A stretch of 60,365 nucleotides of DNA from a virus, in IMG/VR virus record IMGVR_UViG_3300009786_000013, positions 1 through 60,365 of that record. One strand, written 5' to 3'. The translations under genes and the position numbers were made by a program. Positions within the stretch are counted from its first letter, which is position 1. Each line of letters starts with the position of its first letter. Positions 2,272-42,404 of this stretch are shown here, one piece after another. The notes under the pieces were generated by a model. It made no database searches, was not told the origin of the DNA, and saw only the letters and a list, made by a program, of their open reading frames with translations.

Positions 2272-4095
2272 ATGGGATTGTCAGATGTGGCCCTCTCTGT
2301 GGGCAAAGTGGATTCGGGGAATGTGGAGGTGGCTGACATCATCACCTTCATTGAAGCTCCCTGGGGGCTCGGGATGAGGTTGTTCCCCGTCCAGAAGATC
2401 ATTCTCAAGGCCCACTACGGGATCCCCCTCGACGACAAGGCGACCTTCAAGCTCTCCGACTGGCAGAAGAAGGATTTTCGGGATGTCACCGAGGTCGAGT
2501 ACCTCCAGATGCTCCACAAGGAGGGCCGCTCCAACATCTCCGAGGTGGTTGAGGGGGACGAGCGGCGAGAGCTCATCCTCTCCATCGGTCGGCGGTCGGG
2601 CAAGACCACTCTGGCAGCCTGTGTGTCCGCCTATGAAACATATAAGCTCATGAAGAAGGGCGACCCGCAGGACTACTACGGCCTACCGAGCTCGAACAAC
2701 ATCCAGATCATCTCCGTCGCTACGGACAAGGATCAGGCGGGCCTACTCTACCAAGAGGTGTCGGGCCACTACCGCAACTGTGCCTTCTTCCACCCCTACA
2801 TGGCTAACAACACCATGTCGTATGCGCGGTTCCAGACCCCTCAGGACATTGAGCGGTACGGCAAGTACGAGGACGACCCCAACGCCAAGGCCACCGTCAA
2901 GATCACTTTCCGGAGCTGCGTGGCGAAGGGTCTTCGTGGTGCTGGTAACCTCGTGGTCATCTTGGATGAGGTCGCCCACTTCACCGACTCCGGCCAGAGC
3001 TCTGCGGCGGCGGTCTACAATGCGGTCACGCCCTCGACCTCGGCCTTTTCACCCAAGGATCCAACCGACTCGAGGATCCCCATCGGTCCAGTCGAGGGAC
3101 GCATCATCTCCATCAGCTCCCCTCTCGGCCGACAGGGCCAGTTCTACAAGCTGTTCCAGATCGCCATGCGCGGCGGGGCAGCCTCCAAGAACATGCTCGC
3201 CATCCAGGCTCCGACCTGGGAGGTGAACCCCACCGTTCCAGCAGGTGAGTTTCAGAAGCACTACGTGAAAGATGCCGCTGTGTTCTGGACCGAGTACGGC
3301 GGTGTGTTCACCGACCGCACGAAGGGGTGGATCGACAAGGAGGCCGATCTTATGGCCTGCATCGACCCCGCAGCTCGCCCCGCTCTCAGCGGCAAGGTCA
3401 GGCAGCCGCACTTCCTCGGGCTCGACCTCGGCCTTGTGGGCGATGGATCCGCCATCGCCATCGGGCACATCAACGAGGATCAGAGGATCATCGTCGATTA
3501 TGTGGACAAGATTCAGGCGGGGTACGGGGAGCACATCGGTAAGGACCGCCTTGAGTTCGAGGATGTGGCCGACTGGGTGTTGGCCCTCAGCAAGAGGTTC
3601 TATCTGGTTGAGGGGATGTTCGACCAGTGGGCGGGTATCCCGCTCGAGCAGGCACTTGTGAAGAGGGGTCTACGGCAGATGCGGGCTGAGTCAATGACGA
3701 AGCCGAAGGTGTCCGAGATGTTCCGCAACTTCAAGGACATGATGTTCGACCAGAGGGTCATCCTCTATGACCATCCGATCCCCGAGGGGAAGGATCACTG
3801 TCCCTACATTACGGAGATTCTGGAGCTTCAGGCCGAGTATCACTCTAAGTATGTCACCACGGTCGAGGCACCGAACATTGAGGGCAAGCACGACGATATG
3901 TCGGATGCTCTGATCCGTATGGTCTGGCTCGCCAGCAACGCTCTCGGCAAGCCCCGGTATATCGCCACCCTGAAGGTCCAGCGCGGCGGAGAGTCCCAGA
4001 CCTCCAGGCGTAGGAGGGCCCGCGTCAAGGCGCTGGCTGGCGGCACATCTCCTGACAGACAGGCGCCGCCGGGTTCAAAGGGGAGGAAGTGGTGA
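2272..4095 (+). CDS. terL: Terminase large subunit (ATPase-nuclease)
   Basis: DNA-packaging motor that docks on the portal, hydrolyses ATP to translocate DNA and cuts concatemers. The ATPase domain shows a Walker A-like GRRSGKT (residues 106-112) and a Walker B LVVILDE (227-233) with Asp232 and catalytic Glu233. The C-terminal RNase H-like nuclease shows a first acidic residue in FLGLDLG (Asp385) and the terminal acidic motif HDDMSD (540-545). The 607-aa length suits the family. It starts right after the small-subunit candidate and its stop overlaps the next start. All hallmark residues are present, so it should be active. Confidence 0.95.
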   Translation: MGLSDVALSVGKVDSGNVEVADIITFIEAPWGLGMRLFPVQKIILKAHYGIPLDDKATFKLSDWQKKDFRDVTEVEYLQMLHKEGRSNISEVVEGDERRELILSIGRRSGKTTLAACVSAYETYKLMKKGDPQDYYGLPSSNNIQIISVATDKDQAGLLYQEVSGHYRNCAFFHPYMANNTMSYARFQTPQDIERYGKYEDDPNAKATVKITFRSCVAKGLRGAGNLVVILDEVAHFTDSGQSSAAAVYNAVTPSTSAFSPKDPTDSRIPIGPVEGRIISISSPLGRQGQFYKLFQIAMRGGAASKNMLAIQAPTWEVNPTVPAGEFQKHYVKDAAVFWTEYGGVFTDRTKGWIDKEADLMACIDPAARPALSGKVRQPHFLGLDLGLVGDGSAIAIGHINEDQRIIVDYVDKIQAGYGEHIGKDRLEFEDVADWVLALSKRFYLVEGMFDQWAGIPLEQALVKRGLRQMRAESMTKPKVSEMFRNFKDMMFDQRVILYDHPIPEGKDHCPYITEILELQAEYHSKYVTTVEAPNIEGKHDDMSDALIRMVWLASNALGKPRYIATLKVQRGGESQTSRRRRARVKALAGGTSPDRQAPPGSKGRKW

Positions 4096-22818: not shown

Positions 22819-23226
22819 GTGTCGGAGAAGGACAGAAAAGCAAGTAGCCAGGCTGCATGGGCCCTTCTGACCGAGGGCGTTTCGGAAGCTCGCGTCCTCA
22901 CCCACAGGGTGAGGCACATGCTTGACCGCGCACAGGCCGCCGCTGCCGAGTCAGCGGACCGGGAGGCGATCTACCGCGCACTCGGGGATCTTCTGGAGGG
23001 TGCTCCCGAGAGACTGGACAATCTTGAGCGTGTACTCGACCGGACCGGGTACGCCCTGTCGAAAATGGGCGAGGAGTTCCTCAAGGGACGTATCCCCCTG
23101 GATGACAGGTATGAGGTGGATGAGGCCGTGAAGGCTGTTCCTGGGTTCTCTCCTGGGACCCGCCGCAAGTCGTCCCCGAGCCCATCAAGGGTCACGGAGA
23201 GGTACTTGGTGCGGGGGAGAGGGTGA
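22819..23226 (+). CDS. Unknown helical protein
   Basis: A 135-aa protein starting with GTG, five bases after the SD site AGGAGG that lies in the predicted stem above. It is almost entirely helical to residue 95 (TEGVSEARVLTHRVRHMLDRAQ, then ERLDNLERVLDRTGYALSKM), with a disordered basic tail. Its stop overlaps the start of the PAP2/SWIM fusion gene (GTGA), so whatever controls this gene should also control that one through translational coupling. Function unknown. Confidence 0.65.
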   Translation: MSEKDRKASSQAAWALLTEGVSEARVLTHRVRHMLDRAQAAAAESADREAIYRALGDLLEGAPERLDNLERVLDRTGYALSKMGEEFLKGRIPLDDRYEVDEAVKAVPGFSPGTRRKSSPSPSRVTERYLVRGRG

Positions 23227-25250
23227 AGTCCAGGGAAGCCTACCGATCTCCTGACTCGCTACCGGGTACGACGACTTACCGGGATGAGGGATCCGCGAAG
23301 GGACTCCCGCCAGACAAGGGCGATGGCGGCGGCCATCAAGACCCCGATTCCGCCTCGAGGCGGGAGCGTGCGCTCCCCGCGCCCGGTGGATCCGACTCCG
23401 AGGAGAAACCCCCCTCCCAGCCAGTCTACAACCTTCCTGGCCCGTCCGACTCCCACCCCGACGGCAGCCTCCACAAGGACAGGGTCCGCACCAAGGGTGT
23501 GCCAGGCGAGCAGTACGATCCAGAGCCCATCGACCAACCTGGCGGTGGTTTCCGCCGGAGGACTCTCCAAGGAGTAGAGGCCGGCAAGAAGAAGCCCTTC
23601 CCGACGAACAAGCAAAAGAAGCAGAAGGGGAAGGCGTACCTGTACTCTCGCCGCTGGTACAAGAAGAACCGCAAGAAGAAGATCATGAAGGTCAAGCGGA
23701 AGTACAGGGTCGAGAAGAACAAGGGCTGGAAGAAGAGAGACATCAAGAACCGGAACAACCCATCCAAGGACAAGAGGTTCCAGCGTAAGCCGGGGGGTGG
23801 CTACAAGGATCCCGCAGATCGCTCCAAGGATTGGAGGGGCGGGGACAAGCGGACCAAACTCAAGGTGAAGCGGAAGAACGCCGCATTCGATGAGGGCCTC
23901 CTCCGCAGGACCCCACCAGCAGCTTCCACAGTCGGGGCCGAGCTGGAACTCATGCTCGAGCTCCAGGAGGATCTCCGGGGCGATTTCATGGACTTCATCC
24001 TGTGGTTGGAGGATGTCGGACCCGCCGAGGTGTTCTTTGCGGAGCTGGAGGAACTCGGCCTCGAGATGCCCCTGGATGAGGTGTATGAGATAGCGGAAGG
24101 GGCGGCAGCGGTGGCCCGAACCCTCAAGGACACTTTCGCCAGGCCAAGACCTGTCGACACAGCTCTCGAGTACGGCATCCCTCTGGAGGCCGTGGGGGAG
24201 CACCCCTCATGGTCCTATCCGAGTACCCATGTCCTCCAGGCAGAGCTTCTCGCACGGTACTTGTCCCATATCCATCCAGAGTACGGGGAGCATTTCCGCT
24301 CCCTGGCCGACGATGTCGCCCGTTCCAGGGTGGTCGGGGGGATGCACTTCCCGAGCGATTGCGAGTACGCAATCGACCTCGCCGATGAGATGGAGGAAGA
24401 CATGATTCAGGAGTGGGGGTACTCGGACGACGCCGCTGGCCGTGTGGCCAGGCGGGCCGACTTCTTCCGCGACCAGGAGTGGAACCCTCAAAGGTCCGAC
24501 GACTCGAGGGAACCGAGCTCCGTCCCCGAAGGCGATGATGTCCCCTCCCAGTCCCCTTCCGGCCTGACATCGTGGGTAGGTCAGCAGGAGGAGCGGGAGA
24601 ACGGGACCCCAGCACATGGGCACCCAGTAGACCGAGACCGTCCTGGAGCTCCAGGCTCCGCCAGGGTGATCCCGAGAGGCCAGGGGTTCTCTGGCCGGAC
24701 CGCCAACCGCCAGCTCGTGGCAGCCAAGCTCGCCGAGATCATGGGCGGCACGGCGCAGAAGGTCCAGCAGAGGGCCGACACCCTGTCGGTCAAGATGACC
24801 CGGGTGATCGGGAAGTCCCCCATGTGGCTGTTCAACGTGTCCGGCGGGGAGAACATCCACCGGGTCAGACTCAAGGCTGTGCGGAAGGGGAACGTCCGGA
24901 CGCTCGCCAAGGCCGACGTCCTGGTGAGCTGCGACTGCGAGTTCTGGCGGTGGCAGGGTCCCGAGCACTGGGCGAAGGCCGGGGGGTATCTCTATGGACG
25001 CCCCCGGGGATCCGCCTCGAGTCCCGCCGTTCGCGACCCGAACGGGGAACACCGGGCCTGCAAGCATGTGGTCGCCGTTCTCCGGAAGGCGAAGGGGTAC
25101 AGCTTCAGGACGAGGAACCAAGATAAGAAGATGCGGGAGCTCCGGCGGAATAAGACCGCCTCCCCGTGGGATCTTCTCATATCTGTCTTGATCCCCTCAC
25201 CGGGTAATGTGGCGGAGAGACACGGGAGGAGGCGAGATGCCGAACTATGA
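23223..25250 (+). CDS. Basic domain / PAP2-type phosphatase / SWIM zinc-finger fusion
   Basis: A 675-aa protein with no close parallel I can name. Residues 1-118 are disordered; 119-219 are extremely Lys/Arg-rich and probably bind nucleic acid. Residues 230-395 hold all three signatures of the PAP2/class A acid phosphatase superfamily: KX6RP (Lys302 to Pro310), a PSGH-type YPSTH (His336) and SRX5HX3D (Ser368-Arg369, His375, Asp379), so an active vanadium-haloperoxidase-like phosphatase site is expected. Residues 400-480 are disordered. Residues 490-640 end in a SWIM-type zinc motif, Cys570-x-Cys572 ... Cys613-x-His615. No membrane helices are visible, so it is probably soluble or virion-bound. 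Its substrate is unknown. Confidence 0.82.
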   Translation: MKSREAYRSPDSLPGTTTYRDEGSAKGLPPDKGDGGGHQDPDSASRRERALPAPGGSDSEEKPPSQPVYNLPGPSDSHPDGSLHKDRVRTKGVPGEQYDPEPIDQPGGGFRRRTLQGVEAGKKKPFPTNKQKKQKGKAYLYSRRWYKKNRKKKIMKVKRKYRVEKNKGWKKRDIKNRNNPSKDKRFQRKPGGGYKDPADRSKDWRGGDKRTKLKVKRKNAAFDEGLLRRTPPAASTVGAELELMLELQEDLRGDFMDFILWLEDVGPAEVFFAELEELGLEMPLDEVYEIAEGAAAVARTLKDTFARPRPVDTALEYGIPLEAVGEHPSWSYPSTHVLQAELLARYLSHIHPEYGEHFRSLADDVARSRVVGGMHFPSDCEYAIDLADEMEEDMIQEWGYSDDAAGRVARRADFFRDQEWNPQRSDDSREPSSVPEGDDVPSQSPSGLTSWVGQQEERENGTPAHGHPVDRDRPGAPGSARVIPRGQGFSGRTANRQLVAAKLAEIMGGTAQKVQQRADTLSVKMTRVIGKSPMWLFNVSGGENIHRVRLKAVRKGNVRTLAKADVLVSCDCEFWRWQGPEHWAKAGGYLYGRPRGSASSPAVRDPNGEHRACKHVVAVLRKAKGYSFRTRNQDKKMRELRRNKTASPWDLLISVLIPSPGNVAERHGRRRDAEL

Positions 25251-33336: not shown

Positions 33337-33413
33337 TGGCGTCCCCGGCAGGAGTCGAACCTGCGGCCTACCGCTTAGGAGGCGGTCGCTCTATCCGTCT
33401 GAGCTACGGGGAC
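33337..33413 (-). tRNA. tRNA-Arg (anticodon CCT)
   Basis: On the minus strand a full cloverleaf can be folded: 7-bp acceptor GTCCCCG/CGGGGAC, D stem GCTC/GAGC, anticodon stem ACCGC/GCGGT around loop CTCCTAA (anticodon CCT, reading AGG), a 5-base variable loop, T stem GCAGG/CCTGC with loop TTCGACT, G discriminator and an encoded CCA end. All stems pair perfectly and length is 77 with CCA. AGG is used often in the surrounding phage genes, so it may help translate them. It lies 11 bases after the stop of the last minus-strand gene and is probably co-transcribed with that block. Confidence 0.96.
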
Positions 33414-33424
33414 TCGTCCAGACT

Positions 33425-33772
33425 CTACTCAATGGCCCTGAACCGTTCGAGCTTCTCGGCGAAGCCTGAATGGGGTTGCGTCGATCCATAGGCGAGCCAC
33501 ACCTTGCGACCCTCCTGCGTCGGGTCGATGATCATGCGGGTGTACCCATCGTCCGAGAGGTAGACAATCCATGTTCCTCCGTAAGAGGCATCCTCGGCAT
33601 CGGCATCGTCGTTGTTACGGCAAATCGTCCTGCCTGTGAGGTATTCGTCGATGGTGCGGGCGGATGCCTTCAGGACGGCCTGTGCATCGCTCTGTGGCCT
33701 GTCCAACTCGAGCTGTGTGCAGACCTTCACAATCGCTGCAAGAGCCTCACGCGCTTCCTGGTGGCCTACCAT
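33425..33772 (-). CDS. Unknown small protein, minus-strand block
   Basis: A 115-aa protein. I start it at the ATG whose complement ends at 33772 (MVGHQEAREAL), which overlaps the stop of the upstream gene as ATGGTAG; a longer frame to 33817 lies inside that gene. The N-terminal half is helical; the C-terminal half has strands (GTWIVYLSDDGYTRMIID). No motif recognised. It is last of four genes before the tRNA. Confidence 0.62.
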   Translation of the reverse strand: MVGHQEAREALAAIVKVCTQLELDRPQSDAQAVLKASARTIDEYLTGRTICRNNDDADAEDASYGGTWIVYLSDDGYTRMIIDPTQEGRKVWLAYGSTQPHSGFAEKLERFRAIE

Positions 33773-34443
33773 CGTCCGTCCTCGACTCGCTTGGCCCACT
33801 TCTCCATGGTCTCGCACAGTCGCTTCCGGATCTCCTCCCCGACGTTCTTGGAATCCTCGGACTCAAAGGCGTACGCCCGTAGGTTCTCCCGGACGACGTC
33901 GAAGCCCCATTCCTCCGCTCTGGTGTAGAGGATGAACCACTCGAAGGGGTGCAGGGATAGCCACATGCGTGTGAGGGTGATGGTCTCGTCGCACCACGGG
34001 TGCTCGCACTCGTCGAGATCCTTGCGGTTCCACTTTCTGAAATCCTCGGGGTCGTGTTCCCACTCCGCCCGTTGCTCGTCGGATGCCTCCTTGATGGCGT
34101 CCTCCAGAGATTCAGAGAGAATATCGACGCTCCGTCTGTTCCAGTCCGAGATCGCCTTCTCGACGGTCTGTGGGAGGCCCACCTGATTGCCGGTGTCGCC
34201 CAGGATCCAGTCGAGGCCGAGGATGCACCAGTCTACGACTATCGACTCGTCCACGCGGGACGAGTAGTGAGAGAATCCACCCTCAGAGTTGTAGTCCTTG
34301 ACGGCCTTCTCAACCTCACTGTCATACACATGTCCGTCGCTGTAGCTCGAGAACAATGGCTGGCAGCGGGCCAGAAAGCGCTTCGCCTCGACCTTCCCGA
34401 TGTGTCGGGGGTCTGTCGTGTCCTGTGTCTTGGTAGCTTCCAT
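33766..34443 (-). CDS. Unknown protein, minus-strand block
   Basis: A 225-aa acidic, Trp-rich, helical protein. The start is set at 34443 (MEATKTQDTTDP) because AGGAG lies seven bases before it, whereas the longer start at 34464 lacks a site. Sequence such as DESIVVDWCILGLDWILGD and SLHPFEWFILYTRAEEWGF shows buried aromatic helices. Overlaps the following gene by seven bases. I know no family; a cytoplasmic, non-structural role fits its strand and composition. Confidence 0.62.
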   Translation of the reverse strand: MEATKTQDTTDPRHIGKVEAKRFLARCQPLFSSYSDGHVYDSEVEKAVKDYNSEGGFSHYSSRVDESIVVDWCILGLDWILGDTGNQVGLPQTVEKAISDWNRRSVDILSESLEDAIKEASDEQRAEWEHDPEDFRKWNRKDLDECEHPWCDETITLTRMWLSLHPFEWFILYTRAEEWGFDVVRENLRAYAFESEDSKNVGEEIRKRLCETMEKWAKRVEDGRW

Positions 34444-34451
34444 GTCCGCTC

Positions 34452-34850
34452 CTATTGACTCCACCCATCGTCGCCGATGTGGTGGTCTGAAAGGGCGCGC
34501 ACGGCGCCCGTGTACTTGTACTTGTAGGGGAACACCTCGTCAGAGGCCTTCCCGATCCGCTTGCAGAAGTCGGTGTCGTCCTGCCATGCGAAGCCGCCGT
34601 CAGGGAGGAAGACTCCCGTGCCGCAGTGCTCCCCCGAGGAGGACTCATCGATCTCAAGCAGGGCATATGCCTCCGTGCCGTCCGCAAAGCGCACGACGCC
34701 GTTGACCATGACCACTCCGATGGGGCCTCCAGCGGATGCGGAGTGCCGCACCTCGTCGAGGAGGTGCCGCTTGCGACCCCCCGCCGTGAAGGTGGGCTTA
34801 CGCCCCGCTCCGAAGTCGATGGTGATCTTGTTTCCTTTTGTGGTCTTCAT
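34452..34850 (-). CDS. Unknown small protein, minus-strand block
   Basis: A 132-aa protein with a perfect SD site (TAGGAGG) before the ATG at 34850; a longer frame to 34916 overlaps the upstream gene and is not supported. It opens with a basic strand-turn-strand region (KGNKITIDFGAGRKPTFTAGG) and continues with short strands (GPIGVVMVNGVVRFADGTEA). Probably a small beta-rich cytoplasmic protein; function unknown. Confidence 0.65.
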   Translation of the reverse strand: MKTTKGNKITIDFGAGRKPTFTAGGRKRHLLDEVRHSASAGGPIGVVMVNGVVRFADGTEAYALLEIDESSSGEHCGTGVFLPDGGFAWQDDTDFCKRIGKASDEVFPYKYKYTGAVRALSDHHIGDDGWSQ

Positions 34851-34858
34851 GGTTCCTC

Positions 34859-35227
34859 CTATGCCCGCTTCACGGCGGCGGCGGGGAACTTGTAGCTCTT
34901 GCCGGTGCGGATGCACTCTGCGCTGATCGGGTACTTGCGGCGACGGGGGTTGATGCCCGTGACACGGTAGGTGCCGTTGTAGGTGGTGAACTCCCGTCCG
35001 AAGTCTCCGACGGTGAGGTCGTAGAGGGGGGCGAGGCGGGCGAAGTCGGCGGGGATGCCGTCCTCCGTCTCACACACGAACGTGAACTTCACGGTGAAGT
35101 TGGTGTCGCTGAAGCGTCCAGCCTCCCGCTTGAGGGTCAGTCCGTACTGCTCGGCGACCATCTGGAGGGCCATTTCGGCGTCGTCCGCGATGGGCTTGAT
35201 AGTCTGTCGGTTCATTTGAGTGATCAT
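34859..35227 (-). CDS. Conserved-looking unknown, first gene of minus-strand block
   Basis: A 122-aa protein with an SD site (GAAGGAG) before the ATG at 35227. Layout: a helix (DDAEMALQMVAEQYGLTLKR), a strand with FTVKFTFVCE, then LYDLTVGDFGREFTTYNGTYRVTGI and KYPISAECIRTGKSYKFP. This strand pattern recalls small hypothetical proteins common in diverse phages, but I cannot name a family. It is promoter-proximal in the block, so the promoter should lie in the 35228-35386 gap. Confidence 0.65.
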   Translation of the reverse strand: MITQMNRQTIKPIADDAEMALQMVAEQYGLTLKREAGRFSDTNFTVKFTFVCETEDGIPADFARLAPLYDLTVGDFGREFTTYNGTYRVTGINPRRRKYPISAECIRTGKSYKFPAAAVKRA

Positions 35228-36257: not shown

Positions 36258-36276
36258 AAACATGGAGGCCACAGAA

Positions 36277-36621
36277 ATGACCAAGAAGACCAAGGGTGCC
36301 AAGAAGGCAGCCGTCAAGGAGGCAGCGGGAGCTGTCGAGGAAGCAGCCACTGAGGCTGCAGCCACCTTGAATCTTTCCCCCGAGGATCTCCAGATCCTCG
36401 CTCGTTACCGTTCCGGCGGTGAGGACTGTCTCCGTGAGATCGGCCAGATCGAGATCCGAAAGGCCCGTCTGATCGGCTCCTACGGCCAGCTCGAGCAGGC
36501 TTCTCAAACGAAGCTCCAGGAAGTCGGTAAGGCACTCGGGATCGACGAGGGCGTCGCCTGGTCTGTCCAGCCCGACGGATCCGTCGTACTCCACGAGGGG
36601 ACGATGACCGAGGGGGGTTAG
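36277..36621 (+). CDS. Lys/Ala-rich N-terminus plus helical domain protein
   Basis: A 114-aa protein. ATG 36277 is preferred over 36262 because GGAGG lies eight bases before it. Residues 1-32 are a Lys/Ala/Glu-rich stretch (KKTKGAKKAAVKEAAGAVEE), of histone-tail style; residues 35-95 form a helical bundle (LSPEDLQILARYRSGGEDCL, then SYGQLEQASQTKLQEVGKAL), ending in a strand. It sits between the Hc1-like gene and the neck genes, two bases before the next start. No family recognised. Confidence 0.65.
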   Translation: MTKKTKGAKKAAVKEAAGAVEEAATEAAATLNLSPEDLQILARYRSGGEDCLREIGQIEIRKARLIGSYGQLEQASQTKLQEVGKALGIDEGVAWSVQPDGSVVLHEGTMTEGG

Positions 36622-36622
36622 C

Positions 36623-37990
36623 GTGGTAGCGGGGTGGGAACCTTCCAGCGGGGAGCGTCCTACGCCGCCCGCCAACTGCATGGTGACGAGTCCCTACGAG
36701 GTAGGGGTGTACGATCTGCGCTGGGATGATCCCTCCACGCTCACAGCCAACTCCGTCTGGAATGTGGTTGGCGTCAACGTCTACCGTTCAGATGCCTCCG
36801 ACCGGGGGCCATTCCGAAGACTCAATGAGTACCCGGTCGGAGGCGGCTTCTACAGAGATGCCACCGACAACGCCCTGGTGCGCCGCGAGGTGGTTGCCTG
36901 GGACGAGGGGTGGTCCTCCAGGGGTGAGTCCGCCAACAGTGGGCGCTGGAAGCTCAAGACTCGCTGGCCGATGGTCAAGCAGGATGGGCAGGCCATCCCC
37001 GCCGACTCCCCCACCGATGTCATGGTGGAGGTCGATGGCGTGGTTGCCGAGATCCATGAGGTGCTTGGCACGACCGGCGAGGTGATCCTCGTCAATACCC
37101 CCATCTACGACGAGGCCCTCCAGAAGAACCGCCCGCCCGTTGTCCCGACGGGGCCAGACTCCAAGGTCACGGTCACCTACTACAGGTCAGCCAACCTGAC
37201 ACCCGGGGTCGCCCTCGAGCGCAAGGTGTTCTACAGGATCACGACCGTCGCTGCGACGGATGACGGTCTGGTGGAAACCGAGCTCGAACAGTGCCCTCCC
37301 ATCACGCCCACCGCCGTCGAGGAGCTCGACTACATCTGGCGGGAGGCCATCCGGCGGAACCAGTGGATCCTCCAGCAAGGCGGGGAGCGGGTGAAACTGT
37401 TCGTCCGCAAGCAGTCAGGGGTCTCCTGTGACTGCGGCTTGGATCCCCACACCCGGGAGTTCACGGGGCAGCCCTCGAACCGTTGCGAACGGTGTTTCGG
37501 GACCGGTTGGCTCGGGGGATACGAGGGACCCTACGAGATTATCGTGGCCCCTGACGATTCTGAACGACGTGTGGCGCAGACCCCCACGGGACGGCGAGTC
37601 GAGCACACCTATGAGGTGTTCATGGGCCCGAGCCCAATGGTCACGATGCGGGACTTCATCGTGAAGCAGACCAACGAGCGATATTCCGTAGGGGCCGTCA
37701 GGCGCCCCACCAACAGGGGCAACATCCTTCAGCAGCACTTCAACATCGGACTCCTCGACGAGGGGGACATCCGCTACAGGATCCCGATGGACGGCACTGA
37801 GGCCCTTGTATGGCCCGAGACCAGGTACAGCCACAGCGCAGTTGCACCCGCTGCCGGCCAGCACCCCCACGATCCCCCACACCCTGTCGGACCCGACGCT
37901 ACTACGCCTATGGGAACCGAGAAGGGGGACCACGCCGATGAGAACGAGAAGCGTGGAAGAACCCCTGTCTGGTCCAACCAGAATACATAG
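36623..37990 (+). CDS. Neck/head-closure-type protein with zinc finger
   Basis: A 455-aa protein with a GTG start. Residues 15-215 look like Ig or fibronectin-type strands (YEVGVYDLRWDDPSTL, NVYRSDASDRGPFRR). Then come a helix, REAIRRNQWILQQGGE, and a zinc site with Cys269-x-Cys271 and Cys288-xx-Cys291 in CDCG ... RCERCFGTGWLGGYEGPY, a DnaJ-like knuckle that I recall in neck or connector proteins of several myoviruses. The C-terminal 90 residues are mostly disordered. Position ahead of a tail-completion-type protein supports a neck role. Confidence 0.68.
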   Translation: MVAGWEPSSGERPTPPANCMVTSPYEVGVYDLRWDDPSTLTANSVWNVVGVNVYRSDASDRGPFRRLNEYPVGGGFYRDATDNALVRREVVAWDEGWSSRGESANSGRWKLKTRWPMVKQDGQAIPADSPTDVMVEVDGVVAEIHEVLGTTGEVILVNTPIYDEALQKNRPPVVPTGPDSKVTVTYYRSANLTPGVALERKVFYRITTVAATDDGLVETELEQCPPITPTAVEELDYIWREAIRRNQWILQQGGERVKLFVRKQSGVSCDCGLDPHTREFTGQPSNRCERCFGTGWLGGYEGPYEIIVAPDDSERRVAQTPTGRRVEHTYEVFMGPSPMVTMRDFIVKQTNERYSVGAVRRPTNRGNILQQHFNIGLLDEGDIRYRIPMDGTEALVWPETRYSHSAVAPAAGQHPHDPPHPVGPDATTPMGTEKGDHADENEKRGRTPVWSNQNT

Positions 37991-37998
37991 GGGGATCC

Positions 37999-38550
37999 GT
38001 GGCTAAGAAGATGAAGATGAAGATGAAGCTGGAGCATGTGGGGGGTGCCTACGGCAAACCCCTCGCCAGGCGCGTCGATGCGAAGCTCCAGAAGTCGGAC
38101 CTCCAGCGGTTCGGTGAGCTCATGGTGAAGTATGTCGTCGAGGAGGCCCGCAAGTCGGGAGGGCGCTCGAGCTCCATTCCCAAGACGGAGAAGTTCTTCA
38201 AGTCGTTTTCTTACCAGATCAAGGGGTCCAGCACCGTCCAGATCACATCGACCTGGCCCTGGATCGACACCCTTGTGAAAGGGGCCGCCGACGGAGCCAG
38301 TGCAAAGGCGGGCAAACCTTTCCGCATGGAGTGGCTCACGAAGGAGGCGGGGGTCCACGCCGTCCCCATGGTCGATGAGCAGGGCCAAGTCATCATCCGC
38401 GCCGCCCCTCTCACGAAGGCCGATGCCTGGATCCATCCGGGAATCGCTCGGCACACGTTCATTCGCAGGGGTGTTGAGAAGGCCAAGGAGGAGTTTGCCA
38501 AGAGCTTCTGCAAGGAGATCCTCGAGTCTGCAATAGGGGGTCGCCGGTGA
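37999..38550 (+). CDS. Putative tail-completion / HK97 gp10-like protein
   Basis: A 183-aa, basic protein starting with GTG behind AGGGGGATCC. It shows the layout of HK97 gp10-like proteins: a helix, a middle beta domain with TSTWPWIDTLVKGA and the terminal HTFIRRGVEKAKEEFAKSF helix typical of that family. These proteins sit at the tail-head joint. The Lys-rich first ten residues are a flexible tail. Overlaps the next gene by GTGA. The call rests on the order of elements and context. Confidence 0.62.
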   Translation: MAKKMKMKMKLEHVGGAYGKPLARRVDAKLQKSDLQRFGELMVKYVVEEARKSGGRSSSIPKTEKFFKSFSYQIKGSSTVQITSTWPWIDTLVKGAADGASAKAGKPFRMEWLTKEAGVHAVPMVDEQGQVIIRAAPLTKADAWIHPGIARHTFIRRGVEKAKEEFAKSFCKEILESAIGGRR

Positions 38551-39227
38551 CCTCACGCGTTTCAAGGGTGCGGGTCACATGCCTGTGCGACAGCATAAGG
38601 CTCCCTGACCTCGGGATCACACTTCGGAGAGGGGATTCCCAGATCATGTCGGAGATGCAGGTCGAAGGATCAAAGGATGTCTCGAGGGCCGTCAGATCGA
38701 GGGCCGTCAAAATGACCGTGTTTCTCGGACCCCGCCGGATCCTTCCAAATAAGCCACCCAAATCCAAACCCATCAAGCCAACTCCCAAGCCCCATGTTGC
38801 GCCCCCAGTTGATGTGGCCGCCCTCTTGAGAGAGGCCGCCGCCGCCGCTCTGGACCCGCATGTGGCTGCCCTGTCGAGTCAAATCGACGCAGCCGCGGCC
38901 TCTGCTACCGACAAGGCTATGGGGAAGATCGTGGAGGTCCTCTCCCAAATGAAGGATCAGGTAGGTGCCGCACCCGCACCCCAACCCGTCGTGGATCCAG
39001 AGTGGTTGGAGGCGGTCGTACGCTCGGCACTCGCCAGCTCCGTGGTCCTTTCTACTGGACCCGCATCCGACGGTGACATGCCTATGTTCATACCTTCAGG
39101 CATGGCCGACGGCATCCAGGGGGATGTGGGGACGGTGGAGGAATCATCTACCGGATCCGGGGTGGATGAGGCTCGTGAGGCTCTGAAGGCCCTCCGGAAG
39201 AAGAAGCGGGATGCGACGGATGGGTAG
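38547..39227 (+). CDS. Unknown virion-associated protein, Pro/Ala-rich
   Basis: A 226-aa protein coupled to the previous gene (GTGA). The first 60 residues form a small beta domain (VRVTCLCDSIRLPDLGITL, then MTVFLGPRR), followed by a Pro/Lys-rich linker, an Ala-rich helical segment (DVAALLREAAAAAL ... MGKIVEVLSQMKDQV) and a disordered end with a charged helix. Function unknown; a small folded domain with a long linker and coil suits a scaffold or connector part. Confidence 0.6.
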   Translation: MTSRVSRVRVTCLCDSIRLPDLGITLRRGDSQIMSEMQVEGSKDVSRAVRSRAVKMTVFLGPRRILPNKPPKSKPIKPTPKPHVAPPVDVAALLREAAAAALDPHVAALSSQIDAAAASATDKAMGKIVEVLSQMKDQVGAAPAPQPVVDPEWLEAVVRSALASSVVLSTGPASDGDMPMFIPSGMADGIQGDVGTVEESSTGSGVDEAREALKALRKKKRDATDG

Positions 39228-39247
39228 GATCGAATCAGGAGGCACCC

Positions 39248-40288
39248 ATGTCTGAAAACGAAAAACCCAAGAAGAAAAGCCCGAAGGCCAAGCCACAGCT
39301 CGGTGTTGGACTTGATGTGGGGACCATGAACATCGTTTCGGCCCGCAAGGGTGCCGACGGCATCGGGACCAAGCGCGTCCGGGACGCCTTCTTGGATCTC
39401 CCCATCGAGAGCAAGAAGATGCTGAAACTGTCGGGCGTGTCCTATGCGGAACGCGACGACGAACTCCTCATCATCGGCGATGCAGCTCTTGAAACTGCCA
39501 ACGTGTTCGGTAGGGAGGCGCGCCGCCCACTGGCCGCAGGGCTTGTTTCCTCATCGGAGGTGGACGCCCTCGACGTCCTCGGTCTGCTTGTGCGGAACGT
39601 CCTCGGCGAACCCGCCACTGAAAACGAGGTCTGTTTCTTCTCCGTCCCAGCCAACCCCATCGACCAGCCGGACAAGGATGTCATCTACCACAAGGGTGTG
39701 TTCGAGAAGATCGTATCCGAGTGCGGTTATGACGCCCACGCCTCCAACGAGGCCATGGCCATCATCTTTGCGGAGACGGCCAAGGACGGTTTCTCCGGGG
39801 TTGCCCTCTCATTCGGGAGCGGCATGACCAACATCGCCCTGGCCGTGAACACCATCGAGGGGTTGAGCTTCTCGGTGGCCCGCGGTGGGGACTGGATTGA
39901 CCGAGGTGCCTCCAAGTCTATTGGATCCACGCAGGCACGCATCTGCGCCATCAAGGAGCAGGGCGTGGACCTGAACAACCCTGTTGGGCGGGAGCAGGAG
40001 GCCATCGTCTTCTACTACAAGAACCTGGTTGAGTATGCCCTCGACCAGATCGCCGACAGGTTCAAACTCATCCAGGGCCAGTTCGCATTACCCCGCGCCA
40101 TCCCCTTGGTGGTGTCCGGGGGTACAAGTCTTGCCACTGGGTTCGTGGATTTCTTCAAGGAGTGCTTCGAGCGGAAGCGCAAGAGGTTCCCCATCGAGAT
40201 CAGCGAGATCAGGCACGCCAGCGATCCAATGAACGCCGTGGCCTATGGGATGCTCGTACAAGCCATGCAGGAGTATGAAGATGAGTAG
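39248..40288 (+). CDS. Actin-like ATPase
   Basis: A 346-aa member of the actin/MreB/ParM/Hsp70 ATPase superfamily. The phosphate-1 motif is GVGLDVGTMN (residues 19-28, Asp23); the phosphate-2 motif is LSFGSGMTNI (187-196), where the usual Asp is replaced by Ser188; the adenosine motif is VVSGGTSLATGF near residue 290. The N-terminal 18 residues are a Lys-rich tail. Family members bind ATP and most form filaments. It lies inside the neck/tail operon, with the following gene overlapping its stop, and GGGTAGGAT precedes it. Whether it polymerises or was recruited as a virion or assembly factor cannot be told. Confidence 0.85.
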   Translation: MSENEKPKKKSPKAKPQLGVGLDVGTMNIVSARKGADGIGTKRVRDAFLDLPIESKKMLKLSGVSYAERDDELLIIGDAALETANVFGREARRPLAAGLVSSSEVDALDVLGLLVRNVLGEPATENEVCFFSVPANPIDQPDKDVIYHKGVFEKIVSECGYDAHASNEAMAIIFAETAKDGFSGVALSFGSGMTNIALAVNTIEGLSFSVARGGDWIDRGASKSIGSTQARICAIKEQGVDLNNPVGREQEAIVFYYKNLVEYALDQIADRFKLIQGQFALPRAIPLVVSGGTSLATGFVDFFKECFERKRKRFPIEISEIRHASDPMNAVAYGMLVQAMQEYEDE

Positions 40289-40643
40289 CAACAGTAAGAC
40301 CGACCTGGTCCTCGGCATCCTCGGGGATGTTCTTCCAACAGAGCCGGTCATCAAGCCGGAACCCGTTACCGAAGAACAGAGCCTTGGGGGTTTCATCGAG
40401 GGTGAGGCCGAGGGCGACCACGGCGGAATCTACGAGGGAGCCATGTGCCTCGGAGTCGAGCTCACGAACCAGACCGACCTCGGTGACGGGTTCGGAGTCG
40501 ACGGTGCGGGGGATTTCACAGCCGGCAAGCTCGTCTACTATGGCGGCGGCAAAGGCCGTCAATACCTTGGGGACATGGAGCAGATTCATGTAGTCCGCAA
40601 GGATGGAACCCTCACTATCACCGGCCTTATCAGGACGGAGTAG
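40281..40643 (+). CDS. Unknown small protein coupled to actin-like gene
   Basis: A 120-aa protein. ATG 40281 overlaps the actin-like gene's stop by eight bases and lies after AGGAG, so translation is coupled. The N-terminus is acidic and flexible (VTEEQSLGGFIEGEAEGDHG), and the C-terminal half is a beta domain (AGKLVYYGGGKGRQYLGD, then VVRKDGTLTITGLI). It may be a partner or adaptor of the actin-like protein, given the tight overlap. No family recognised. Confidence 0.65.
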   Translation: MSSNSKTDLVLGILGDVLPTEPVIKPEPVTEEQSLGGFIEGEAEGDHGGIYEGAMCLGVELTNQTDLGDGFGVDGAGDFTAGKLVYYGGGKGRQYLGDMEQIHVVRKDGTLTITGLIRTE

Positions 40644-40658
40644 CACCGTGGAGGGTTC

Positions 40659-41855
40659 GTGTACTACCAGCTCACAGAGGCACTGAAGCGGAGGTTCATC
40701 CTCGAGCTCCGTCGTATGTGGGCCGCACACCCGAAATACCAGGACCTCGTCGGGAACATCCAGGGTAAGTACACGTTCAAGGAGCGCCCTCAGTACGGCA
40801 TCATCGTGAAGACCTCGGGAGCTACGAAGGTGGAGCTCGCCGCCGACAACTTCATAGGGACCGTCCACAGTTATGCCTACCTGGCCCGTGTCGATTCCTT
40901 TCCCGGTCAGTCCATCGAGTGGATCCGGGAGCATACTCCCGCCATCCAGAAGAACGGGGGCCGCTTCCCCTCGCCAGCCGGGGTCTACTACATCGAGGTC
41001 ACCGAGTACGACCCCCAGCGGGGAATGGGCCAGTTCTGGGTGGACCGCCTCCTGGATGTTTGGAACGAGCCCGTCACGATGTCCTCTCCTTTGGAGGGCC
41101 GTCTTCAGAGGGTCCCCCTTCCTGGAACGCTGGCTCTCTATGAGGCTCCAAGCGGCACCCTCCTTCACGAGGGCGGTGCCTATGAATATGATTCGACCGA
41201 CGGCACCATCACACTGAAGAAAGCTCTCGGAAAGGGTTTGAGCCTTTCTGCAGACTACAGATTCCCGGCGGCATCCGTTGGTCCCTACGACTTTGCCGAC
41301 CTCCGTGCGAACATCGCCGCCATTCCGGGTGTAGTCCTCGCTTTCGGCCGTATGGCCTCAAAGGGTGATCGTGCTGCCGTGGTGGTGTCCCGGAGGCGAT
41401 CCCCCGTGGCCCTCGAGTACGGCGGCAAGTGGGAAGTGAGCCTCGACTTCGATGTGCTGTCCAGGGACCAGTATTCGCAGATGGAGATCTCCGACCGTAC
41501 GATCACATGGATCTACGGCGTCCTCCGTCCCCGTGTGTCCCACGAGGGTATCGAGATCTTGGATGTGTCGTTCGGAGGGGAGGCGGAGGAGATCTTCGAC
41601 GAGAACGCCGATGACTACTTCTACAATGCCTCATTCTCCGCAACCGTTCAGACGGATTGGGGGATCCAGGTTCCGCTAGGGCCCGAGCTCCGATCCATAT
41701 CTCCTGCATCTGCGGCGGATTCAAGAGCTGTGGAGGAGAACCCAGGGATGCAGGACGGTAAGATAAATCCTGTATCTCCGGGCGGGTTGGGGTTGCGGCC
41801 AGTGCGGGATCCGTTCTTCTCAGGACGGTCCAATACCTTCGAGGTGATCCGTTGA
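40659..41855 (+). CDS. Probable neck / tail-terminator-type virion protein
   Basis: A 398-aa protein with a GTG start after CGTGGAGGG. Layout: an N-terminal helix (TEALKRRFILELRRMWAA), strands, an aromatic-rich middle (GVYYIEVTEYDPQRGMGQFW), a beta hairpin region and a C-terminal domain with EYGGKWEVSLDFDVLSRDQ and SDRTITWIYGVLRP, whose strand-helix order resembles tail-terminator proteins, which measure and cap the tail. The last 60 residues are disordered. Location directly before the sheath gene supports a neck or tail-end role. Confidence 0.6.
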   Translation: MYYQLTEALKRRFILELRRMWAAHPKYQDLVGNIQGKYTFKERPQYGIIVKTSGATKVELAADNFIGTVHSYAYLARVDSFPGQSIEWIREHTPAIQKNGGRFPSPAGVYYIEVTEYDPQRGMGQFWVDRLLDVWNEPVTMSSPLEGRLQRVPLPGTLALYEAPSGTLLHEGGAYEYDSTDGTITLKKALGKGLSLSADYRFPAASVGPYDFADLRANIAAIPGVVLAFGRMASKGDRAAVVVSRRRSPVALEYGGKWEVSLDFDVLSRDQYSQMEISDRTITWIYGVLRPRVSHEGIEILDVSFGGEAEEIFDENADDYFYNASFSATVQTDWGIQVPLGPELRSISPASAADSRAVEENPGMQDGKINPVSPGGLGLRPVRDPFFSGRSNTFEVIR

Positions 41856-41918
41856 TCCGGCCTCTCGGTGGACCCCCTATACCCACCTGCAATCAGGGAC
41901 GAAGTAACGGAGGATGCT

Positions 41919-42404
41919 ATTCCACTCTACAGCTACCAATGTGAAGACTGCGGTCTACGGTTCGACAGGCGGATGTCCGCCTCAAGAGCTGGAGATGCCG
42001 TCGGGTGCAAGTGTGGGGAGCAGGCATCTAGGGTTGTTCCGGATTCAGTACAGACCACCTTCAACCCGAAGGGGGACGGTACGATCCAGCCACAGAACAC
42101 TGGTGTTTCGTCCTACGATGCCAATGTGGATCGTGTGATTGGAGAACATGCAAGAGGAAGCTGGGATGCAATAGCCCAGAGACATACCCGAAAGAGGGAG
42201 GTTCTTCGGAACAACCCTGGAAAGACGGGTTGGGATCTCGGTAGGACCTTGGACGGCGACTACCAACCCATGAAAACTGAGGAGAGAGGCGCCGCCGAGA
42301 TGGCGCGTGGGCTCCACGGTAAGGCTCTAGGGATGCTTGAGCGCCACAAAAAGAGGCGAAAGAAGGCGACTGACGCGGGTCAAGCTGCCAACCACCAGTC
42401 CTGA
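41919..42404 (+). CDS. FmdB-type zinc-ribbon protein with probable ATT start
   Basis: A 161-aa protein. The frame has no ATG/GTG/TTG at the expected place. A GTG lies at 41868 but has no SD site and adds a disordered leader. ATT 41919 lies five bases after GGAGG (41909-41913) and gives the standard opening xPLYSYQCEDCG, placing Cys8, Cys11 and Cys30 exactly as in the paralogue at 25237; a CxC (30, 32) closes the ribbon. The remainder is basic and helical (GARGSWDAI-like and Lys/Arg-rich end). If ATT is not used, the start is 41868. Confidence 0.65.
   Translation: MPLYSYQCEDCGLRFDRRMSASRAGDAVGCKCGEQASRVVPDSVQTTFNPKGDGTIQPQNTGVSSYDANVDRVIGEHARGSWDAIAQRHTRKREVLRNNPGKTGWDLGRTLDGDYQPMKTEERGAAEMARGLHGKALGMLERHKKRRKKATDAGQAANHQS

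Follow-up and report, generated by a model that had tools for sequence, protein, structure and literature searches.

The gene at 39248-40288 encodes an actin-like protein in the midst of phage virion genes, and it raises the question of what such a protein is and what it could be doing there. The stretch analyzed, here called the window, is a virus record of 60,365 bases, and its virus is taken to be a phage because of a tail sheath gene (gene 49, Table 1); a weak terminase match was also found at 2272-4095. The reading frame opens with an ATG, spans exactly these positions and lies in a tightly spaced run of plus-strand genes. A first-pass annotation made from the letters had described an actin-like ATPase with phosphate-1, phosphate-2 (LSFGSGMT, Ser188) and adenosine motifs, and both the protein type and the motifs stand as read.

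The protein matches the Pfam Volactin profile PF25216 over its full length (profile positions 3-321 of 321) with 234.6 bits and an E-value of 2.5e-69, the cut-off being 35. Volactin is the sole strong family match in Pfam, that to FtsA being sub-threshold, and PHROG gave no match for the protein. A profile search of the window for MreB (PF06723) returned nothing at E 0.001, and the protein has no Pfam match to ParM or the plasmid-partition actin family, which rules out membership of either group. By tblastn, volactins on Haloarcula and Natrinema plasmids are 38% identical over 94% of the length. On sequence evidence, then, the window protein is a volactin encoded by a phage.

Structure prediction points in the same direction. 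An AlphaFold2 model of the single chain, built from an alignment of 115 relatives, has an actin fold (pLDDT 91.7, pTM 0.89), and residues 1-11 are its one segment below a pLDDT of 50. Its top Foldseek match in the PDB is the MamK double-helical filament (E 2.5e-15, TM 0.70), further solved relatives being MreB, BeeR (TM 0.71) and actins, and MamK is also the one PDB match of the family profile (E 1.3e-10). In a viral structure library the nearest entries were Hsp70s and Gp506 of phage G, with nothing of volactin type among the matches. Neither a fold other than actin nor a place in an ordinary ParM clade was found. The Lys-rich tail described in the first-pass annotation is misplaced: the lysines cluster in the disordered N-terminus (residues 1-17), which is not conserved in relatives, and the modelled protein stops at the end of the actin core.

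Table 1. Features of the volactin gene and of the surrounding module in the window.
Feature	Position	Strand	Basis or remark
Gene 41, small, conserved, upstream end of module	36262..36621	+	Homologs in 42/80 volactin loci
Gene 42, virion-structural type, start 36623 or 36707	36623..37990	+	PHROG 1004 virion structural, E 0.0065 (weak)
Gene 43, neck-type (weak label)	37999..38550	+	Neck1, E 0.008 in 1/49 relatives
Gene 44, conserved N-terminal domain and low-complexity tail	38547..39227	+	Homolog comparison
Shine-Dalgarno of volactin gene, AGGAGG (perfect)	39237..39242	+	Sequence reading
Volactin gene (gene 45), 346 aa	39248..40288	+	PF25216 match; actin-fold ATPase by family and model
Phosphate-1 motif VGLDVGTMNIV, residues 20-30 (GLDVGTMN 21-28)	39305..39337	+	Sequence reading and alignment
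E168, catalytic-Glu position, aligned with MamK E143	39749..39751	+	Profile alignment
Phosphate-2 motif ALSFGSGMTNI, residues 186-196	39803..39835	+	Sequence reading and alignment
S188, in place of actin/MreB Asp and MamK D161	39809-39811	+	Profile alignment
GGDWID motif, residues 213-218	39884..39901	+	G214, D215 and D218 invariant in alignment
Adenosine motif, residues 287-299, LVVSGGTSLATGF (VSGGTS 289-294)	40106..40144	+	Sequence reading and alignment
Gene 46, overlaps volactin 3' end	40281..40643	+	Divergent homolog in one other phage contig (L011) only
Gene 47, between volactin and sheath, tail-terminator position	40659..41855	+	63/80 loci, median identity 50%
Gene 48, zinc-ribbon, FmdB-like	41868..42404	+	PHROG FmdB-like, E 0.064; 57/80 loci
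Gene 49, tail sheath, 1635 aa	42544..47451	+	PHROG 2839, E 7.1e-27

The active site is shared across the family, including its departure from other actins. D23 and G25 of the phosphate-1 motif are kept in the phage and haloarchaeal relatives and, with few exceptions, in the other cellular ones, the GGDWID motif is one that we take to be the counterpart of MreB GGDxxD, and a Glu stands at the position of E168 in 175/175 aligned rows. At the phosphate-2 Asp position a Ser was found in all 174 readable rows (83 phage, 51 haloarchaeal, 40 other cellular). Because the collection scans had partly used the phosphate-2 motif as bait, the count was repeated on loci recruited solely with the Pfam profile, where Ser and Glu were each present in 45/45. 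Judged from these alignments, the exchange of Asp for Ser is a trait of the whole volactin family. Ser188 is thus constant rather than the local substitution it had first seemed, and its family-wide invariance rules out a degraded active site. In MamK, mutation of E143 or D161 is reported to abolish ATPase activity and filament dynamics, and D161A filaments are static (PMC5059902); in the prophage actin AlpC, the corresponding phosphate-2 mutant D301A forms rare, less dynamic filaments (PMC4446434). Since volactins lack this Asp, their turnover may be slow or dependent on another residue. VolA of Haloferax, the one volactin for which this has been demonstrated, forms dynamic, cytoplasm-spanning filaments in vivo (PMC10869688), so the Ser, read in haloarchaeal volactins other than that of H. 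volcanii, is probably compatible with filament dynamics. Its presence throughout the family raises the question of how nucleotide hydrolysis and turnover proceed in a volactin actin.

The gene also has a recurrent setting. An alignment scan of IMG/VR found 501 viral stretches encoding volactin relatives, of which the best 80, on contigs of up to 618,736 bases, were taken as the set of loci. When all window genes were compared with these 80 loci by tblastn, the series 41-42-43-(44)-volactin-47-48-49 (sheath) was recurrent. The order 42-43-volactin-47-48 is kept in 124/124 phage loci holding all five genes, and gene 43, the steadiest upstream neighbor, lies within 5 kb of volactin in 164/165, the contigs being fewer than these loci because loci overlap. 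Other phages therefore do share the neighborhood, as the first-pass annotation had proposed to check, and its placement of the gene between neck and sheath genes is firm on the sheath side, the neck labels being weak. Gene 42 has homologs at 61/80 loci with a median identity of 53%. Genes 42, 43 and 47 gave nothing significant against PDB profiles, nor did a fold search with gene 43; the function of gene 47 is assigned by position, since it has neither a PDB nor a Pfam match. The overlapping gene 46, once suggested as a dedicated partner of volactin, does not recur in a way that would fit that role (Table 1), and no conserved adjoining adaptor with a DNA-binding signature was found among the loci compared. 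Gene 44, which lies between gene 43 and volactin in 49/55 loci, is the best partner candidate and is offered as a lead only. A scan for promoters and terminators gave no signal above chance.

Two further features of the window lie outside this series. A 675-aa protein of the structural region (23223-25250) carries a PAP2-superfamily phosphatase domain (PF01569, 35.7 bits, above the 27.2 cut-off) and has homologs in loci L036, L038, L066 and L079. At 33337-35227, a minus-strand island with a tRNA-Arg(CCT) and four small genes interrupts the plus-strand morphogenesis genes.

Volactins of this kind extend to very large phages. By tblastn, the uncultured huge phage LR745208 (485 kb) encodes one that is 72.5% identical to that of the window, and LR756511 (595 kb) one that is 28.8% identical (L007:20001-21020); a gp25 baseplate gene lies about 14 kb upstream of the latter, and the neighbor set of the window phage is absent there. 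In 22 records searched whole, volactin was free of internal stops and single-copy, apart from one 297,104-base contig with two copies (L050:10028-11038 and L073:2129-3130), each following its own gene 42-43 set; the module may have been duplicated, or the assembly may have fused two phages. In a tree that left out LR756511 and whose root was not inferred, phage volactins form one clade (SH-aLRT 99), with the haloarchaeal clade (SH-aLRT 100) and the bacterial volactins separate. Origin from a haloarchaeal virus is unsupported, as the phage sequences do not branch from within the haloarchaeal clade. Phage-type volactins at 71-72% identity were also met on contigs binned in one bacterial and one Thermoplasmata MAG (L086 and L087); these are probably phage contigs in those bins, or else a hint at the host.

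Since recruitment by volactin favors loci that have it, loci were recruited a second time by gene 42 or gene 47. Volactin was present in 61/72 and 54/63 of these new loci, respectively (~85%), and several of the others end early. Eight loci hold genes 42 and 47 with volactin missing, and consist of genes 42, 43, 47, 48 and 49, with gene 44 in half of them (4/8). Neither volactin, tubulin nor MreB was found elsewhere on the contigs searched, one of 536 kb and some of them fragments, and so no replacement by a tubulin or another actin was seen. On a tree of genes 42 and 47 (69 loci), absence of volactin requires five changes, on well-supported branches and at scattered tips. Volactin is present throughout this tree, and the simplest reading is that it was ancestral in the phage group and was lost at least five times. 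These losses leave the neck and tail genes undisturbed. In 19 matched pairs the median dN/dS of volactin is 0.08, compared with 0.09, 0.20 and 0.10 for genes 42, 43 and 47. An initial view of volactin as the single best-conserved gene of the module had to be softened: the scan was ranked by volactin identity, genes 26 and 54 have similar median identities across the 80 loci, and in the matched pairs the constraint on volactin exceeds that on gene 42 by little. Taken together, the comparisons indicate that volactin is dispensable yet strongly selected.

A gene that is fixed in its module, strongly selected and cleanly lost several times is more easily read as a late-acting aid to virion production than as an indispensable part of the neck or tail. 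The actin fold, the catalytic Glu and the kinship with MamK and haloarchaeal volactin favor a filament. Phage volactin would thus be a late-made filament or cytoskeleton that organizes virion assembly, a reading to which we give about even weight. Volactin would polymerize late in infection, alongside the neck and tail gene products, and its filaments would place heads, tails or finished particles, or would reshape the host to make room. Polymerization is most likely, by analogy with haloarchaeal volactin and with MamK, the nearest solved filament; late expression is suggested by the operon position; and we infer the job in assembly or positioning. That some cellular volactins are found in gas-vesicle clusters, beside other large protein assemblies, also counts for this reading. 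More tentatively, and somewhat short of an even chance, a widespread clade of huge phages could possess its own volactin cytoskeleton, produced together with the neck and tail proteins, that moves or orders virions, an actin counterpart of the PhuZ spindle acting on assembly instead of DNA.

An alternative that we think unlikely is an Hsp70-like, actin-fold assembly chaperone or minor structural protein that drives folding or joining of neck and tail parts through nucleotide binding and may remain in the finished particle, a fate known for the Hsp70 homolog of closteroviruses. The location, which at nearly every locus is after gene 43 and ahead of gene 47 and the sheath, a conservation equal to that of the best conserved structural genes and the resemblance of the model to viral Hsp70 homologs all fit it. 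However, at least five lineages, including the 536-kb contig, retain the 42-43-47-48-49 order with no volactin, MreB or tubulin match, and the protein ends with the actin core and has no Hsp70 substrate-binding domain. The first-pass annotation had left a choice between a filament and a head or tail assembly chaperone; the filament remains the best reading, and an obligatory chaperone is unlikely because these lineages lost volactin and kept their neck-type and sheath genes. Volactin is unlikely to be a permanent structural component of the neck or tail. Against the assembly filament itself count the missing phosphate-2 Asp, the lack of a conserved dedicated adaptor among the loci compared, and the chance that its place among the tail genes is simply one where an insertion is tolerated.

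Two other roles compete with the assembly filament. Volactin could co-polymerize or compete with a host actin (volactin, MreB, MamK or similar) and thereby block division or alter cell shape, with the late operon setting the timing; haloarchaeal volactin does act in cell shape (PMC10869688), and dispensability with repeated loss is what a host-dependent accessory gene would display. The phage clade is, however, not nested in any cellular clade. Late structural operons are, moreover, an unusual home for takeover genes, and we doubt this explanation. Still less probable is a ParM- or AlpC-like filament for DNA partition or transport. Phage actins such as AlpC of CGP3 do move viral DNA (PMC4446434) and the fold is that of a MamK-like filament, but Pfam matches to ParM and MreB are lacking, no conserved adaptor with a DNA-binding signature was recognized next to it, gene 46 being unconserved and gene 44 a conserved candidate partner, and volactin resides among virion genes rather than replication or partition genes. 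The first-pass placement of an actin-like protein in the neck/tail operon is upheld: the gene keeps a steady place in that module, and its product is not ParM, MreB or a known Alp.

The cytoskeletons that phages are known to own are the PhuZ tubulin of nucleus-forming jumbo phages and, rarely, partition actins resembling ParM. Volactin belongs to a different actin family and appears as a long-standing, strongly selected resident of the morphogenesis module in a large phage group, with contigs of up to 619 kb. No published description of volactin in phages was found by full-text search, a source that leaves most subscription papers and bioRxiv preprints outside its scope. No phage actin is mentioned in a 2026 review of jumbo phages (PMC13282480), a 2021 comparative genomics survey (PMC7824862) or the huge-phage paper (PMC7162821), and studies of this kind of actin have so far been confined to its part in the cell shape of salt-loving archaea.

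Nor is volactin a haloarchaeal peculiarity: several bacterial phyla have it too, and in some of them gas-vesicle genes lie next to it. Such clusters were seen in Anaerolineae, Desulfobacterales, Patescibacteria and Acidobacteria records (L101:9899-10930, L105:9983-11065, L100 and L104), with GvpL/GvpF Pfam matches of E 2e-59 to 2e-70 in L101 and L105, and they also hold DnaK, AAA ATPase and ArsA-like genes; a connection of volactin with gas vesicles has, to our knowledge, not been published. Omnitrophota (L090:9986-12599; L088, L089, L091-L093, L096-L099 and L102) carry a tandem pair of divergent volactins in a conserved cluster, flanked by a ParA-type ATPase, a coiled-coil gene and further coiled-coil genes. 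This cluster, from its gene content, looks like a cytoskeletal system, and volactin exceeds the cut-off in 5/145 Omnitrophota genomes. In Magnetococcales (L107-L109, L114, L131 and L132), the volactin gene follows one for a FimV-type protein; this cluster is conserved, and its surroundings show no obvious magnetosome genes.

Among known systems, haloarchaeal volactin (VolA, HVO_2015, PF25216) is closest: the family is common to both, identity to haloarchaeal members is about 38%, and the phosphate-1, Ser-type phosphate-2, GGDWID and adenosine motifs are the same. The phage gene differs in belonging to a neck/tail module, in forming its own clade and in lacking the acidic C-terminal extension. 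MamK of magnetotactic bacteria (5LJV, 5JYG) provides the best solved fold and the one PDB profile match, with its catalytic Glu aligned, whereas identity is 18%, MamK has Asp161 where volactins have Ser, and no magnetosome genes lie near the window gene. Phage Alps, among them AlpC of prophage CGP3, are likewise phage-encoded actin folds (PMC4446434), yet AlpC pairs with the DNA-binding AlpA and has the phosphate-2 Asp D301, and the window protein has no match to that sequence family. The PhuZ tubulin of nucleus-forming jumbo phages is also a phage-encoded cytoskeleton of very large phages, although of tubulin rather than actin fold, and tubulin PF00091 was found in 0/22 and 0/9 records of the window's phage group, a profile search that a divergent PhuZ could escape. 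PhuZ is a non-essential filament that is missing from some relatives (PMC13282480), and in logic it would be a fair analogue of phage volactin.
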